Under the pieces are notes generated by a model. It had not been told where the DNA came from. It made no database searches and worked only from the letters and a program-made list of their open reading frames with translations. This document shows positions 7,194-39,033 of a DNA stretch of 39,190 bases, in pieces. The stretch spans positions 1 to 39,190 of the forward strand of contig ONKU01000020.1 of NCBI GenBank assembly GCA_900318535.1, written 5' to 3'. Each line of letters starts with the position of its first letter. Position 1 is the stretch's first letter. The translations under genes and the position numbers were made by a program. Source of the DNA: an uncultured Prevotellaceae bacterium. GTDB lineage: Bacteria > Bacteroidota > Bacteroidia > Bacteroidales > Muribaculaceae.

Positions 7194-7344
7194 AAACTAC
7201 GAATTACACGAGTGGCGCTAATGATCATCTCGGTATTGTTGATTTATTAGTTTAATTCGTGTAATCCGTAGTTCAGTTATTAGTCAAATTCGTTTACAAT
7301 TGGATGCGGATGCTAATTAGTTTAATTAGCGTAATTCGTAGTTT
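7194..7344. repeat. Gene-less copy of the dispersed palindromic repeat
   Basis: The left end AAACTACGAATTACACGA (7194-7211) and the right end GCGTAATTCGTAGTTT (7329-7344) are inverted copies of each other. An internal inverted copy, TCGTGTAATCCGTAGTT, lies at 7257-7273. The right part (7281-7344) is almost the same as 33881-33943, including the shared core ATGCGGATGC (7304-7313). The unit fills the gap between the micro-ORFs and the GntR gene. It appears to be a non-coding relative of the GxxExxY-bearing element at 33392-33943. Confidence 0.8.
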
Positions 7345-22108: not shown

Positions 22109-23071
22109 ATGAATTGGCAAGATATTAAGGGAAAATACCGGCAATTCAAGCAATGGCAACTGAATCCGATGAAATATGCCGACTGTGATGATGTCCATTA
22201 CTGCAATAATTGCGGACTGATGTTCTCTGGCAACTTCTGTCCCCGTTGTTCGCAGAAGGCCGACTTGGGCCGCATCAGCTGGAAAAGCGTGCGCAACGGC
22301 GTTATGGACATTTGGGGCTTGGGAACACGTTCGCTGCTTTACAGTGTCTGGCAGCTGCTGATGCGCCCCGGATATTTCATCAGTGACTACATCAGCGGCA
22401 AGCGCCAGGTGAGTTTCCCACCGGTAAAAATGCTGTTTATTGTCACCGTGATTTATTCACTTATCATCTATTGGCTTTTCCCCAAAGTTTTTGGCATTCA
22501 GCTGCATGACATAGATGAGGGAAGCCGTCAGCTGCTGAGTGATTATTACAATTGGTATGAGAGCCATTTCAGTTGGGCGATGTTGGGGATGTCTGTACTT
22601 GCCATTATCCCGACGTGGGTCATGTTCCGATACGCACCGCGCAATACCCGTCACAGTCTGCCCGAGGGCTTTTTCATTCAAGTCCTCTTCTCGGTGCTGA
22701 TGGTGGTGCTGAATTTCTTCTTGATATATTTGGTGCGGGTAAATCTCATTGCCTATAATGTCGCCATATCCCTATTCACGATGTTCTATTACATTGTCGG
22801 TTATATGCAGCTTTTTGGTTATGGATTTTGGGGCACCCTTTGGCGTGAGGCGTTCGTCTTACTGCCCATCGTCTTAATCGAGTTTGGGTTAATTTTCGCA
22901 TTCTTCGGTGTTGATGCTCTTGCCCCTCTCAACAAGCAACTCTCAGCTGATGAGATGCTGCAAATGAAAATCATTGCGGTAGGTGGCATGCTGTTATTGG
23001 CTGTTGTGATTATGGCCGTGGGCTGGGTAATCAATCTCATAGCCACACGCAAGGCGAGGAGGAGTCTTTAG
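22109..23071 (+). CDS. DUF3667 membrane protein with N-terminal zinc ribbon
   Basis: A 320-residue protein typical of Bacteroidota DUF3667. Residues 32-47 hold a zinc ribbon: C32 and C35 (YCNNC), C44 and C47 (CPRC). A conserved segment (GVMDIWGLGTRSLLYSVWQLLMRPGYFISDYISGKR, residues 64-99 in short) leads into six predicted membrane helices, near residues 106-124, 153-172, 187-207, 219-240, 250-270 and 289-309. The function is not established for this family. It is an integral inner-membrane protein with a cytoplasmic zinc knuckle. It is a single-gene unit that converges on the thioesterase gene, with tandem short repeats in between. Confidence 0.88.
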   Translation: MNWQDIKGKYRQFKQWQLNPMKYADCDDVHYCNNCGLMFSGNFCPRCSQKADLGRISWKSVRNGVMDIWGLGTRSLLYSVWQLLMRPGYFISDYISGKRQVSFPPVKMLFIVTVIYSLIIYWLFPKVFGIQLHDIDEGSRQLLSDYYNWYESHFSWAMLGMSVLAIIPTWVMFRYAPRNTRHSLPEGFFIQVLFSVLMVVLNFFLIYLVRVNLIAYNVAISLFTMFYYIVGYMQLFGYGFWGTLWREAFVLLPIVLIEFGLIFAFFGVDALAPLNKQLSADEMLQMKIIAVGGMLLLAVVIMAVGWVINLIATRKARRSL

Positions 23072-23114
23072 TCCCTAGTTTTTAGTCCCTAGTCCTTAGT
23101 TTCTAGTTTTTAGT
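23067..23114. repeat. Short degenerate tandem repeat (TAGTCCCTAGTTTT)
   Basis: The stretch between two convergent genes consists of about four imperfect copies of TAGTCCCTAG/TAGTTTTTAG. It includes the end of the DUF3667 gene and the stop codon of the thioesterase gene. Such CTAGT tracts probably arise by slippage. I see no hairpin with a U-tract. Confidence 0.7.
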
Positions 23115-23550
23115 CGTGGCCCTCAAAGGCGACGATGGCGTCGCGCCACACCTGTGGAATCGGGCTGGGCTGGTTGGTCTCGGGAGCCATATTGACCATC
23201 ACGGTGGCACAGGTGGCTTTCACCTCGCGGGTGCCGCTGTTGACCACGTGCTGCAGCAACGTCAGGCTCTTGTTGCCCAAGCGCATGCACTGGGTGAGCA
23301 CCTCGACGGGCTCGTTGAACAGGGTGGGTTTGAGGAAACTGCAGTTCACGTTGGCGATGATGACCGTGGGACGGCGCCAGTCGATGTCGGCCTGCACATT
23401 CAATCCTTTGAAATAATGCGTCTTACCCAGGTCAAAAAACTGGAAATAGACCGAATTGTTGACGTGGCCCAGTGCGTCCACGTCGTTGAAACGCAGCTGC
23501 ATGGGTGTTGAGCACTTGAAGGGGTATGGTGATTCGATTGCGTGATTCAT
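23110..23550 (-). CDS. Acyl-CoA thioesterase, hotdog fold (YbgC/FadM type)
   Basis: A 146-residue protein. The start MNHAIESPYP at 23550 is chosen because the open frame above it overlaps the DUF721 gene. The 4HBT signature is NDVDALGHVNNSVYFQFFD (residues 22-40), with D25 as the likely catalytic Asp of the D-x-D-x-x-G-H-x-N pattern. It should hydrolyse acyl-CoA thioesters in the cytoplasm; chain length cannot be predicted. It is the last gene of the recF-DUF721-thioesterase unit, 5 bp after DUF721. The stop codon lies within the CTAGT repeat tract. Confidence 0.9.
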   Translation of the reverse strand: MNHAIESPYPFKCSTPMQLRFNDVDALGHVNNSVYFQFFDLGKTHYFKGLNVQADIDWRRPTVIIANVNCSFLKPTLFNEPVEVLTQCMRLGNKSLTLLQHVVNSGTREVKATCATVMVNMAPETNQPSPIPQVWRDAIVAFEGHD

Positions 23551-32092: not shown

Positions 32093-33376
32093 TCAACAGT
32101 CAGTTATTGTCGGCGGTTGGGGAGTGGCATCTTTTGGGGTGACAGGTAGCCATTGGTAGAGTTTGTCGCTGGGGCGTATTTTCTCGGGCACGGCGATGGA
32201 GAAGTGCTCGCCCTTGACGGTCTTCTCTACGGGTTTGAGGTCCACGCGTATTTCCTCGATCGTCAACGGGATGGCACCCGTCGTGGGGCCGATGATCCAT
32301 GCCTCGTCGCCCACGTGCAGTTCGCCGGCCTCCATCAGGAACTCGGCAACACCGAGCTTGCTGTAATAACGGATGCCCTTGGCGACATATTTCTTGACGC
32401 GTGTGGCGCTGGAGCCATATTTGGCCGACCACTCGCCCAGGCGCTGCCCCATGTAGTAACCGTCCCAAAAACCGCGGTTAAAGACCTTGGCCAGGCGCTC
32501 GTTCCACTCGTTGATGCGCTCCTCGGTGTAGGTGCCGTCGCAGATGGTCCGTAGTGCCTCGTCATAGCAGCCGATGACCGTGCGCACATATTCCGGTCCA
32601 CGTGCACGTCCCTCAACCTTGAATACCGTGACGCCAGCATCCACCATCTTGTTGAGGAAGTGGATGGTCTTGAGGTCCTTGGGCGACATGATGTATTTGT
32701 TCTCGATGGCCAGTTCGTCGCCGTTCTCGCGGTCGGTGACGATGTAGCCCCGACGGCAAATCTGGCGGCACGCGCCGCGGTTGGCGCTGGTGTTCTCCTG
32801 ATGCAGGCTCATGTAGCACTTGCCGCTCACGGCCATGCATAGCGCTCCGTGGCAGAACATCTCCAGTCTGACGCGCTCGCCATGAGGTCCGCGAACGTCA
32901 TTTTCCTCGATGAAATGGGTGATTTTGGTCACCTGCTCCAGGTTCAGTTCACGGGCCAGTACCATGACGTCGGCCCACTGGCTGTAGTAGCGCACGGCTT
33001 CGCTGTTGCTCACGTTGACCTGGGTGGAAATGTGCACCTCCACGCCGATGGAACGGGCAAACAGGATGGTCGCCATGTCGCTGGCGATGATGGCGCTCAC
33101 CTGGGCATCTCGGGCGGCGGTGACAATCTGGCGCATGTAGTCCATGTCCTCGTCATAGACGATGGTATTTACCGTCAGATAACTCTTCATGTCATGCTCG
33201 TGGCACCACTGGGCGATGGTGCGCAGGTCGTCGAGCGTGAAATTCACGCTGGAGCGCGACCGCATGTTCAGTCCCTCGATGCCAAAGTAAATGGCGTCGG
33301 CACCACCCTGATGGGCGGCATATAGCGATTCCCAAGAGCCCACAGGGGCCATAATCTCAAAATCCTTGCGATTCAT
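32093..33376 (-). CDS. U32 family protein (RlhA/TrhP type, RNA hydroxylation)
   Basis: A 427-residue U32 protein. The N-terminus MAPVGSWESLYAAHQGGADAIYFG (in short) is typical. The four Cys signature is C175 (EMFCHGALC), C180, C187 (SGKC) and then C203 and C207 (GACRQICRR). The cysteines are thought to bind an Fe-S cluster. Although labelled peptidases, characterised members RlhA and TrhP hydroxylate 23S rRNA or tRNA using prephenate-dependent chemistry. An RNA-modifying role is therefore more likely here. Directly upstream is the terminal repeat of the GxxExxY element (ends at 33392, 15 bp before the ATG). I find no exact -7 box in the gap, so the element may supply the promoter. Confidence 0.9.
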   Translation of the reverse strand: MNRKDFEIMAPVGSWESLYAAHQGGADAIYFGIEGLNMRSRSSVNFTLDDLRTIAQWCHEHDMKSYLTVNTIVYDEDMDYMRQIVTAARDAQVSAIIASDMATILFARSIGVEVHISTQVNVSNSEAVRYYSQWADVMVLARELNLEQVTKITHFIEENDVRGPHGERVRLEMFCHGALCMAVSGKCYMSLHQENTSANRGACRQICRRGYIVTDRENGDELAIENKYIMSPKDLKTIHFLNKMVDAGVTVFKVEGRARGPEYVRTVIGCYDEALRTICDGTYTEERINEWNERLAKVFNRGFWDGYYMGQRLGEWSAKYGSSATRVKKYVAKGIRYYSKLGVAEFLMEAGELHVGDEAWIIGPTTGAIPLTIEEIRVDLKPVEKTVKGEHFSIAVPEKIRPSDKLYQWLPVTPKDATPQPPTITDC

Positions 33377-33391
33377 GATTCAGTTCATTTT

Positions 33392-33943
33392 AAACTACGA
33401 ATTACGCGAATTTTACTAATGGCATCCGCATACTTATTATTTCAAATTATACTAATTGTGATATCTGGATATGATTGGTTGTCAGTTGTTTGGATATTGT
33501 TTTTTGATGTTGCAAAATCGTTCTGTCTTTAAACTGGTTTCGCCAAAATTGGCGAGGATTCCCAATTCATATCCTGTAGCTTTCAGATAATTGATGACTT
33601 GGGCTTTTTCGACATCTGATAACTTACTGATTGCTTTCAATTCGACAATAATCTTGTCGTAGCACACAAAATCAGCGATATATTCTTGCTGTAGAGGCAC
33701 TCCCCTATAGAATATCTTTAAACTGACTTCTCTCTGGAAAGGAATCTCTTCTGCGATGAATTCACGTTCTAATGCTTCTTGGTATACTTTCTCCAAGAAT
33801 CCGCAACCCAACTCACGATGGACCTTCATCATGCACCCAATAATTTTATATGATTCGTTCGGATAAATGATCATGATTCTTAGTCAAATTCGTTATAATT
33901 GAATGCGGATGCTAATTAGCTTAATTAGTGTAATTCGTAGTTT
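33392..33943. mobile_element. Candidate element: GxxExxY gene flanked by long terminal inverted repeats
   Basis: A 552-bp unit fills the whole gap between the U32 and mutS genes. The left end (33392-33456) reads AAACTACGAATTACGCGAATT then GCATCCGCAT (33422-33431). The right end (33881-33943) is its inverted copy, with ATGCGGATGC (33903-33912) and ending GTAATTCGTAGTTT. The two ends are about 63 nt long and imperfect. Between them is only the GxxExxY gene. The unit is visibly richer in AT than its surroundings. A related gene-less copy is at 7194-7344. I see no clear target-site duplication. Calling it mobile is an inference. Confidence 0.65.
33482..33874 (-). CDS. GxxExxY protein, PD-(D/E)XK nuclease superfamily
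   Basis: A 130-residue protein of the GxxExxY family, part of the PDDEXK_3 nuclease-like clan. The name-giving motif is G25-x-x-E28-x-x-Y31 (GFLEKVYQEAL). A putative nuclease core is D68 (ADFVCYDK) with E78-x-K80 (IIVELKA), as in restriction-type nucleases, followed by the conserved AQVINYLKATGYELGILANF (in short). The residues look intact, so it may be catalytically active. Its biological role is not settled. It lies alone inside inverted terminal repeats (33392-33943), and its AT-rich codons differ from those of mutS and the U32 gene, suggesting acquisition. No clear promoter box is seen. Confidence 0.88.
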   Translation of the reverse strand: MIIYPNESYKIIGCMMKVHRELGCGFLEKVYQEALEREFIAEEIPFQREVSLKIFYRGVPLQQEYIADFVCYDKIIVELKAISKLSDVEKAQVINYLKATGYELGILANFGETSLKTERFCNIKKQYPNN

Positions 33944-33949
33944 CTAAAA

Positions 33950-36571
33950 TTATCTTTCTTTCTTGCCGGTGAGGATGCCCTTGATGTCGTAGAGCTTGTT
34001 CAGGGCCTCAACGGGCGTGAGGTTGTTGATGTCGATGGTGAGGATCTCGTCGCGTATCTGGCTCAGCACAGGGTCATCGAGCTGGAAGATGGACAGCTGG
34101 TAGCCCGAGCGGCTGCTGGCCACGTCGCCCAGGTCCTTGGTGATGGCATTGTCGCTGCGGTTGTTGGCCTCGAGTTGCTTGAGCACCTCGTTGGCCCGTT
34201 TGACGATGCTGGGCGGCATGCCTGCCAGCTTGGCGACGTGGATACCGAAGCTGTGTTCGCTGCCTCCCTTGACCAGTTGGCGCACAAACACCACCTTGCC
34301 GTTGATTTCCTTGACACTCACGTTGTAGTTGACGATGCGCTTGAAGGATTTCTCCATCTCGTTCAGCTCGTGGTAGTGGGTGGCAAACAGCGTTTTGGGC
34401 CTGGCGGCGTGCTCGTGGATGTGCTCGACGATGCTCCAGGCGATGGAGATGCCGTCATAGGTGCTCGTGCCGCGGCCCAACTCGTCGAACAGGATGAGGC
34501 TGCGCTGGCTCATGTTGTTGAGGATGGCGGCGGCCTCGGTCATCTCGACCATGAAGGTGGATTCGCCCAGCGAGATGTTGTCGCTGGCGCCCACGCGGGT
34601 GAAAATCTTGTCTACCACGCCGATGCGGGCCTGCTCGGCAGGCACGAAACTGCCCATCTGGGCCATCAGGGTGATGAGTGCCGTTTGGCGTAACAATGCC
34701 GACTTACCGGCCATGTTGGGACCGGTGATGATCATGATTTGCTGTTCGTCGTTGCTCAGGCGGATACTGTTGGGCACGTAGGTCTCGCCCGGCGGCAACT
34801 GGCACTCGATGACGGGATGGCGTCCCATGGCGATGTCGATGTCCAGGCTGTCGTCCAGTACGGGGCGGTTGTAGCGGTTCTCCATCGCTACGCGCGTCAG
34901 GGCGTTGAGGCAGTCGAGCTGGGCGATGATGGCGCTGTCGTTCTGGATGGCGGGGATATACTCGGTCACCGCGGTCACCAGCTCGTTGAACAGGCGGGTC
35001 TCGATAATGAGGATTTTTTCCTCGGCACCCAGGATTTTCTCCTCATATTCCTTGAGTTCCTGGGTCACATAGCGCTCGGCATTGACCAGCGTCTGCTTGC
35101 GTATCCACTCCTCGGGCACCTTGTCCTTGTGGGTGTTGCGCACCTCGATATAGTAACCGAACACGTTGTTATAGGCGATTTTCAGGCTGGGGATGCCCGT
35201 TTGCTCGCTCAATGTGCGCTGCATGGCCACCAGGTAGTCCTTGCCGCTGCTCGAGATGTCGCGCAACTCGTCGAGTTGGGCATCCACGCCACGACAGATG
35301 ACGTTGCCACGGTTGGTCTGGTTGGGCGCATCGGGGTTGATTTCGCGTTCGATGCGGTCGCGTATCAGGGTGCAGGGGTTCAACTGCTCTCCCAGATTGT
35401 GCAACACGTCACACGCCGCCTGCTGGCAGTACTGCTTGATGGGCTCGATGGCCTGCAGAGCGCTCTTGAGCTGCACCAGTTCGCGCGGGGTGATGCGTCC
35501 CACGGCGGCCTTGGACGTCAGGCGCTCCATGTCGCCGATAAGCTCCAGACGTTCCTTAATCAGTTCGCGCCCCTCGGGGTCACGCATGAAGTGCTCCACC
35601 ACGTCCAGGCGGCGGTTGATGGCCTTGACGTCCTGCAGCGGGAAGAGCACCCAGCGGCGCATCATGCGTCCGCCCATCGGCGAGATGGTGCGGTCGATGA
35701 CGTCGAGCAGCGACTTGCCGTCGTCGCTCATGGGGGCCACGAGTTCCAGGTTGCGGATGGTGAACTTGTCGAGGCGCACATAGCGCTCGGCCTCGATGCG
35801 TGACAGGTGGGTGATGTGTCCCAGCTGAGTGTGCTGGGTGATGTCCAGGTAGTGCAGGATGGCGCCGCTGGCGATGATGGCGTTGTCCATGGCCGTGATG
35901 CCGAAGCCCTTGAGGCTGCGTGTCTCGAAGTGCTTCAGCAGGCGGTCGTTGGCCGCCTCAAAGGTGAATACCCAGTCCTCGAGTTCAAACGTCAGGTAGC
36001 GCGACGAGAACGTGGCGGCAAACCGCTGGCGGTTGCTGCGCTCGATGAGCACCTCCTTGGGCGAGAAGTTGACGAGCAGTTTGTCGATATACTCCTCGTT
36101 GCCCTCGGCGGTCAGGAATTCGCCCGTGCTGATGTCGAGAAAGGCTACGCCCAGCGTTTTCTTGCCGAAGTGGACCGCAGCCAGGAAGTTGTTCTCCTTG
36201 CGGTCGAGCATCGTCCCGCCCACGACCACGCCGGGTGTCACCAGCTCGGTAATGCCGCGCTTGACGAGTTTCTTGGTCAGTTTGGGGTCCTCAAGCTGGT
36301 CACAGATGGCCACGCGTTTGCCGGCGCGCACGAGTTTGGGCAGATAAGTGTCCAGGGCATGGTGGGGAAAGCCCGCCATCTCGGTTGCTGCGGCCGCACC
36401 GTTGCTGCGCCGCGTCAGGGTGATGCCCAGTATCTCGCTGGCAATCACGGCATCCTGCAGGTAGGTCTCATAGAAATCTCCCACACGGAACAGCAGGATG
36501 GCGTCGGGATGCTTGGACTTCATCTCGACGAACTGCTTCATCATCGGCGTTTTCAACGGGTCTTGTGCCAT
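33950..36571 (-). CDS. mutS: DNA mismatch repair protein MutS
   Basis: An 873-residue MutS. I start at 36571 ([14 protein letters not shown]) and not at 36598, because the -7 box (36600-36607) places transcription start below 36598. The mismatch-reading motif GDFYE is at 31-35 (F33 inserts at the mismatch, E35 contacts it). The ATPase has Walker A GPNMAGKS (617-624), DELGRGTST near residue 695 and THYHEL further on. It recognises mismatches and small loops and recruits MutL. The length is normal. The stop is 6 bp from the end of the GxxExxY element. Confidence 0.97.
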
Positions 36572-36599
36572 CTTGTTTGCATGAATGGTTTCAAACATG

Positions 36600-38874: not shown

Positions 38875-38898
38875 TTGGAGCAGTATCTTTTTAATAAT

Positions 38899-38950
38899 AA
38901 ATGGGCTCATTTTCGCTAGTAATACTTTCGAGGCGAAAATGAGCCCATTT
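38899..38950. terminator. Perfect 18-bp hairpin after the radical SAM gene
   Basis: The arms 38899-38916 (AAATGGGCTCATTTTCGC) and 38933-38950 are perfect inverted repeats, with a 16-nt loop. It starts 25 bp past the stop. No T-run follows, but the arm itself ends CCCATTT, so a weak U-tract exists. It is longer and more perfect than the other terminators here, and an RNA-processing or repeat origin is possible. Confidence 0.6.
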
Positions 38951-39033
38951 AATACCGAATTTTCTCGAAAAATGGCCAAATTCGCTACCGAATTGTTAAC
39001 GGAAGTTATTTTTAGAAGTTTTTGACTGGAATA

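Follow-up and report, generated by a model that had tools for sequence, protein, structure and literature searches.

The DNA window analysed in this study, meaning the whole stretch of 39,190 nucleotides, carries a small gene of the GxxExxY family which is enclosed by two inverted arms and lies between a U32 peptidase-like gene and a gene which we take to be mutS. The features are as follows.

32093-33376, minus strand: U32 peptidase-like gene, a neighbour given as context (named after an earlier note on this DNA)
33392-33455, plus strand: arm adjoining the U32 gene, 3' of the GxxExxY gene; AAACTACGAATTACGCGAATT..., units of about 9 nt in tandem, and then GGCATCCGCAT
33482-33874, minus strand: GxxExxY (TIGR04256 / PDDEXK_3) nuclease gene, 130 aa
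33879-33943, minus strand: arm adjoining mutS, 5' of the GxxExxY gene; it repeats the other arm in inverted form, with outer end AAACTACGAATTAC
33950-36598, minus strand: presumed mutS, a neighbour given as context (named after the same note)
7194-7344, no strand assigned: gene-less copy of the repeat of the unit, consisting of a hairpin (7195-7273) and an extra arm-like half up to 7344

The earlier note had described a lone GxxExxY gene between inverted copies of a sequence of about 63 nt, and this was found to be correct. The first 63 nt of the arms have 49 bases in common, the gapped similarity extends over about 65-70 nt, and the local alignment score of the arms was reached by none of 2000 single-base shuffles. 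In an ungapped comparison, 33392-33420 and 33915-33943 match over 29 nt with 83% complementarity. Inverted repeats scoring at least 13 were present in the flanks of only 1 of the 27 window ORFs tested, namely the GxxExxY gene. The unit is also AT-rich as had been stated, its G+C content being 35.3% against 54.8% for the window. The further statement that it fills the gap between mutS and the U32 gene exactly holds for nearly the whole gap, but about 15 nt towards the U32 gene and 6 nt towards the mutS stop codon are left over. No Rfam match was obtained in 33300-34000, and the unit is intergenic, between mutS and the U32 gene, rather than inside an rRNA gene. Another inverted repeat of the window, at 38895-38954 (22 nt, 95%, loop of 16 nt), is unrelated to the GxxExxY element.

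The 130-aa protein matches TIGR04256 (E-value 2.2e-43, 147.3 bits, curated cut-off 35) and PF13366 (E-value 5.3e-41, 140.1 bits, curated cut-off 22) far above the cut-offs, which places it in the GxxExxY / PDDEXK_3 family. In 37 aligned sequences the residues E28, Y31, D68, E78, K80, Q92 and Y96 are invariant, and D68, E78 and K80, which had been judged intact from the window gene, are among them. This E...D...ExK...QxxxY set is the one found in RecB/Cas4-type nucleases. The AlphaFold2 model of the protein is confident (pLDDT 91.8), and Foldseek gave four matches at an E-value of 0.001 or lower, i.e. SSO0001 twice (4ic1, which we take to be Cas4), DinG and LHK-Exo. The next matches were RecE, AddAB and lambda exonuclease, with E-values near 1e-2 or below and TM-scores on the query of 0.39-0.58. 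The likeness to Cas4, lambda exonuclease and RecB-type PD-(D/E)XK enzymes is therefore one of predicted fold and residues, whereas the gene differs from them in standing alone, at 130 aa, beside mutS and the U32 gene and not beside CRISPR or helicase genes. Searches of Pfam and NCBIfam at E-values up to 0.001 returned PD-(D/E)XK families only, with no HUH tyrosine (Y1) nuclease and no known transposase domain. No PDB sequence matched the GxxExxY profile (best E-value 0.33), PHROGs gave weak matches only, and PADLOC gave only a weak SduA match (E-value 0.018), which does not place the protein in anti-phage defence. No function for GxxExxY was found in the literature searched, which included few subscription papers and no bioRxiv preprints; one paper mentions the name once, where another pipeline called a cas4 gene (PMC8934634).

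Inverted arms were found to accompany most of the related genes. The genus set consisted of 61 genomes, 54 of them with GxxExxY genes and together giving 201 TIGR04256 matches. The sample of 135 of these was non-random, as the best match per genome was read and then further matches down the score order; 134 were scored and one was dropped due to a short flank. Arms scoring at least 15 are present at 122 of the 134 genes, compared with none of 1340 flanks after dinucleotide shuffling and none of 201 shifted positions, the latter being mostly coding DNA and supplemented by the ordinary window ORFs, of which 1 in 27 passes as described above. In another control, the upstream flank of one gene was paired with the downstream flank of another, and 3 of 35 genes stood above the 99th percentile; this control is spoiled by the sharing of arms within a clade. 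The distant set covered relatives of the CGCTAAG clade only, from named genomes of many phyla, and comprised the best 80 of at least 570 confirmed matches, 3 of which were dropped for short flanks. Arms are present at 58 of the 77 loci scored, whereas shuffling gave 0 of 385 and shifting the position 2 of 414. The association of gene and repeat thus exceeds chance in the genus and among these best matches, as the earlier note had anticipated, and no clear arms are seen at 12 of the 134 genes in the genus and at 19 of the 77 loci in the distant set. Among seven plasmid loci, arms were seen in Bacteroides, Sphingomonas and Bernardetia, the Gemmatirosa gene has a broken frame with a whole hairpin on either side, the Treponema locus has an 11-nt pair and that of Prevotella nigrescens has no arms. 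A GxxExxY gene on a Fusobacteria plasmid (L207) is flanked by repeats of about 45 nt which are direct and not inverted, as judged by eye, and a Sphingomonas element (L204) lies between fabD and fabG in the same direction as both.

The plan of the arms is common to these loci and their sequence is specific to the gene. Each arm consists of a few tandem units, typically of about 9 nt and overall of 8-10 nt, for example CACGCTAAG-TCGCTAAG-ACGCTAAG at L057 and GACAAGAAA-GACAAGAAG-GACAA at L134. The self-match of genus arms at a lag of 9 is.464 versus.306 in shuffles, and the observed self-match of the distant-set arms at a lag of 8 is.434. A single repeat common to all GxxExxY genes was considered and rejected, as the six GxxExxY genes in the genome of the window carry different arms; inverted repeats flank five of them, and L025, the sixth, has only downstream hairpins.

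Arm sequence was found to follow the protein. Pairs of loci were compared which have an arm score of at least 15 and no internal stop, and which lack similarity in their outer flanks. Arms are shared by 24 of 25 pairs whose proteins are 80% or more identical and by 16 of 5338 pairs below 45%. For cross-genome pairs alone, at 80% identity or more and without outer-flank homology, 23 of 24 share arms, the permuted mean being.069 and 0 of 2000 permutations reaching the observed value. The sharing observed at identities of 0.5, 0.6, 0.7 and 0.8 was also unreached in 2000 permutations of the arms. Just 15-21% of the pairs with 50-70% protein identity share arms, and the arms therefore diverge faster than the proteins. 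Among the 58 armed loci of the distant set (from the best 80 of at least 570), 47 have at least two CRCNRAG units in their arms, as do 7 of 7 members of the CGCTAAG clade in the genus; elsewhere in the genus such units were seen at 2 of 115 loci, and one of these two (L061) aligns with the CGCTAAG clade. This conservation across phyla, seen in the arm sequences, is the strongest sign that the arms may be recognised by their cognate proteins, and horizontal transfer of whole elements would also give rise to it.

The repeat is also dispersed apart from the gene. In the 2.92-Mb genome, whose gene content points to a probable member of the Bacteroidales, AAACTACGAATTA occurs 23 times and the pattern read backwards 0 times. 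The occurrences fall into 16 places; one flanks the GxxExxY gene of the window, the other 15 are gene-less, and none of these is at another of the six GxxExxY genes. By our own classification, a hairpin with both arms facing is present at 8 of the 15 (C15, C18, C31:19630, C33, C34, both C43 places and 7194-7344 of the window), and the other places hold halves or worn copies. The segment 7274-7344, like some other copies, keeps the interior of the 5' arm of the gene (by eye), as if the gene-less copies were derived from the gene-bearing form. Across the 61 genus genomes, 416 copies of AAACTACGAATTA were counted in 29 genomes versus 4 copies read backwards, and 677 copies of CGCTAAGNCGCTAAG, the repeat of the CGCTAAG clade, versus 1. 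The RNA folds computed for gene-less copies were strong in all five tested, with z-scores from -4.1 to -7.3. A further dispersed repeat was noticed at L003:2127-2160, in the final part of the sequence with which site 3 (see below) was searched, and it matches many places in many genus genomes.

Copy number was compared with the presence of the cognate gene. Among the genes read (135 of 201), GxxExxY genes with CTACGAATT arms come from 12 genomes, all of which contain 6-62 copies of AAACTACGAATTA; of the other 49 genomes, 32 lack the repeat and 17 carry 1-27 copies. For the CGCTAAG clade the protein was searched in all 61 genomes, and the nine with a gene at least 70% identical to L026 (interrupted by a stop codon in one genome and cut by a contig end in another) all contain 19-52 copies of CGCTAAGNCGCTAAG; of the 52 genomes without such a gene, 34 have no copy and 18 have 2-108. 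A Mann-Whitney comparison limited to carriers gave p values of.004 for AAACTACGAATTA and.0015 for CGCTAAGNCGCTAAG, which are nominal, since the two sets of carriers largely overlap, kinship among them is probable and the genomes are incomplete. Neither repeat is present in the 7 of 61 genomes which have no GxxExxY gene at all. Many repeats with no cognate gene found were seen in G054, with 108 CGCTAAG copies, and in G009, with 27 AAACTACGAATTA copies and five of its six genes read.

The gap between mutS and the U32 gene (site 1) was then compared in relatives. The two genes adjoin with a gap below 900 nt in 18 of the 50 loci read, and 12 of these gaps hold inverted repeats scoring at least 12, which belong to two families. 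Nine are of the AAACTACG type, with the gene in G000, G019, G036, G037 and G051, with gene pieces recognised by eye in G006, G054 and G059, and with neither in G058; three are of the TTTAGTTGTAAGT type (G007, G009 and G024). The remaining six gaps score 6.5-11. By eye, a worn AAACTACG hairpin can be recognised in G057 and in G044, and the gaps of 66-70 nt show short TCTAGA repeats in G017, G023 and G032 and a AGGTCTTTA pair in G025. The earlier note had named in advance, as evidence against a link of gene and repeat, that the repeat should also stand at this locus where the gene is absent. It does so in G058 and, in a more worn state, in G057 and G044; but in G059, G006 and G054 the arms enclose pieces of the gene, and the gene-less copies therefore look like products of deletion. 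The G054 gap (L170) holds about five half-elements in tandem, each of about 85 nt, together with the gene piece (by eye), which suggests local amplification of one arm. In five further species (G001, G011, G042, G045 and G049) an S23/IVP gene lies at most a few hundred bases from the U32 gene. S23/IVP is the four-helix-bundle protein of rRNA intervening sequences (IVS).

Three more places with a AAACTACG hairpin in the same genome (sites 2-4) were followed through relatives, with the closest loci taken from each search (24, 26 and 21). Hairpins scoring at least 12 are present in 23 of 24 loci at site 2 (four families), 22 of 26 at site 3 (six clusters) and 17 of 21 at site 4 (six clusters), where the single-member clusters of G057 (site 3) and G036 (site 4) look like kin of another cluster and five families may be the fairer count. 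Since the sites were picked for a hairpin in the genome of the window, their occupancy is biased upward and their variety of families is unbiased. In scans over 3 kb, hairpins scoring at least 14 fell in the 150-nt bin of the site in 23 of 23, 22 of 26 and 17 of 21 spanning loci for sites 2, 3 and 4; the other bins, most of which appear to be coding, held such hairpins in 6 of 23 loci at one site 2 bin and in 1, 1, 6 and 1 of 26 at four site 3 bins. Many of the site hairpins have arms which match those of GxxExxY genes (e.g. L047, L052, L057, L122, L133, L134, L151 and L152) or of S23/IVP genes (L301, L314 and L315); for the GATTAGTGATTAG, ATAGGACTTATAAG and TAAGGTCCTTAGG site hairpins no good match was found among the sampled genes. 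Different species thus carry different hairpin families at four intergenic sites, including the mutS-U32 gap. We read this turnover, from the comparison of genomes, as a sign that hairpins are probably inserted at others already present or take their place.

The hairpins would also stay in place if selection favoured a hairpin between these genes. According to such an explanation, the host retains hairpins at the ends of genes for termination or mRNA stability, the hairpins are exchanged via recombination or template switching, and the small genes are passengers in their loops. The short intergenic gaps, the presence of hairpins in most loci at sites 2-4 and the strong RNA folds are in agreement with it, as are the terminator-like hairpin of G055 at site 2 (by eye) and the layout common to the S23/IVP genes, which are free of a nuclease. 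It leaves unexplained the tracking of protein clade by arm sequence across phyla, the invariant catalytic residues and, unless this is mere kinship, the absence of both repeats from the seven GxxExxY-free genomes. Moreover, site 4 has no hairpin in G002 and G026, where about 15 nt separate the genes. We consider host-kept hairpins an unlikely explanation of the unit.

The unit is more probably, in our moderately confident judgement, a small mobile (selfish) element of REPIN/RAYT-like kind which carries a PD-(D/E)XK nuclease resembling Cas4 and lambda exonuclease. The association of gene and arms, the clade-specific arms, the dispersal, the gene remnants and the site turnover, all as they appear in the genomes compared, are the observations from which this reading starts, and recognition, cutting and movement by the GxxExxY nuclease are what it would add to them. 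Each GxxExxY clade would have its own arm sequence, presumably recognised by its protein. The arms may pair as a hairpin or cruciform in single-stranded DNA, the strong fold having been computed for gene-less copies as RNA, and the cognate nuclease may then cut near the hairpin, as the conserved catalytic residues and the fold would suggest. The hairpin would be copied or pasted into short intergenic gaps, preferably those already bearing a hairpin, so that families replace each other; the turnover is seen in the relatives and the mechanism is a putative one. Loss of the gene would leave short hairpins of about 60-110 nt, which may persist and spread in gene-less form as REPINs do with RAYTs. 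Several observations count against this reading: no transposition was seen, target-site duplications were not apparent by eye, S23/IVP genes free of a nuclease have the same layout (see below), repeats abound in G054 and G009 with no cognate gene found among the genes covered, few pairs at 50-70% protein identity share arms, some genes lack clear arms or, like L207, have direct repeats, and in the mutS-U32 gap only 12 of 18 loci pass the hairpin score, in two families.

The RAYT/REP parallel had been proposed in the earlier note, and its anatomical part has held: a nuclease gene is flanked by inverted short repeats, gene-less hairpin doublets are dispersed, and the repeat type tracks the protein type. 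RAYTs are HUH tyrosine nucleases, and on this defining enzyme the parallel failed, as GxxExxY is a PD-(D/E)XK protein with a Cas4-like fold. The GxxExxY arms differ further in being built of tandem units of 8-10 nt, with several families exchanging at the same sites. As for the GTAG/CGTC tag of REPINs, the AAACTACGAATTA arm contains CTAC/GTAG and the CGCTAAG arm does not, by direct inspection without statistics.

If the unit were an ordinary insertion sequence, the nuclease would be a cut-and-paste transposase, the arms terminal inverted repeats and the hairpins MITEs. The gene between inverted repeats, the internally deleted copies and the empty or alternative sites would fit this, and the gene-less derivatives of a gene-bearing parent resemble MITEs. 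The element differs from these in that inspection of sites 1, 3 and 4 by eye, where the flanks have diverged, revealed no target-site duplication, and no known transposase domain was found. The arms, furthermore, are made of tandem units and the same sites are reused. We regard an insertion sequence of the usual kind as very improbable.

S23/IVP genes were found to have the same layout. PF05635 (S23/IVP) is matched in 55 of 61 genomes, above the curated cut-off in 51, and 30 loci (L290-L319, best per genome) were returned, of which 29 were used and one was dropped for a short flank. Arms scoring at least 15 are present at 24 of the 29, versus 0 of 168 shifted positions. These genes, e.g. L294, L302 and L308, are outside rRNA, and the arms belong to tandem-unit families of their own, e.g. 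TTAGTCCC and TCAGTTGT. These genes have no nuclease domain and share the layout, and a nuclease is therefore not required for the architecture in general. The parallel speaks against nuclease-driven movement as the general cause.

An element acting at the level of RNA, like the rRNA IVS, has to be weighed at this point. Its arms would pair in RNA around the gene, the protein would act on RNA or DNA hairpins, and copying would pass through RNA. S23/IVP proteins are the proteins of rRNA IVS and have the same layout in this genus. The IVS of Coxiella is described as having an S23 ORF in the IVS loop and three tandem GACAGAT heptamers upstream, and old proposals that such sequences are mobile are cited there (PMC4990558). 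The GxxExxY unit resembles it in having a small ORF between inverted repeats with tandem short repeats, and differs in being intergenic and in that its ORF encodes an unrelated nuclease and not the S23 four-helix bundle. The nearest folds of GxxExxY are mostly DNA nucleases, and the locus has no Rfam match, both of which argue against an RNA-level element; we hold it to be improbable.

Returning to a mobile element of DNA, a broader proposal may be put forward tentatively, and we think it rather doubtful at present. Hairpin elements, each family with its own tandem unit of 8-10 nt, would spread into intergenic positions which already bear a hairpin, either overwriting it or inserting there, and would be carried by at least two unrelated small proteins (GxxExxY and S23/IVP), the rRNA IVS being members that landed in rRNA helices; this would be a categorically new class of mobile DNA. 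The GxxExxY genes with their own versions of the arms, together with the scattered and interchanging gene-less repeats, suggest an undescribed kind of mobile genetic element; no description of one was found in the literature searched, within the coverage given above. GxxExxY genes are present in many bacterial phyla, and if each protein partners its own repeat family, its role becomes testable. If this is true, many unexplained intergenic repeats would gain an origin and the puzzle of the origin of rRNA IVS a candidate answer. In the window itself, tandem TTAGTCCC/TAGTTTTTAGT units which resemble the arms of S23/IVP genes were observed at 23060-23115.
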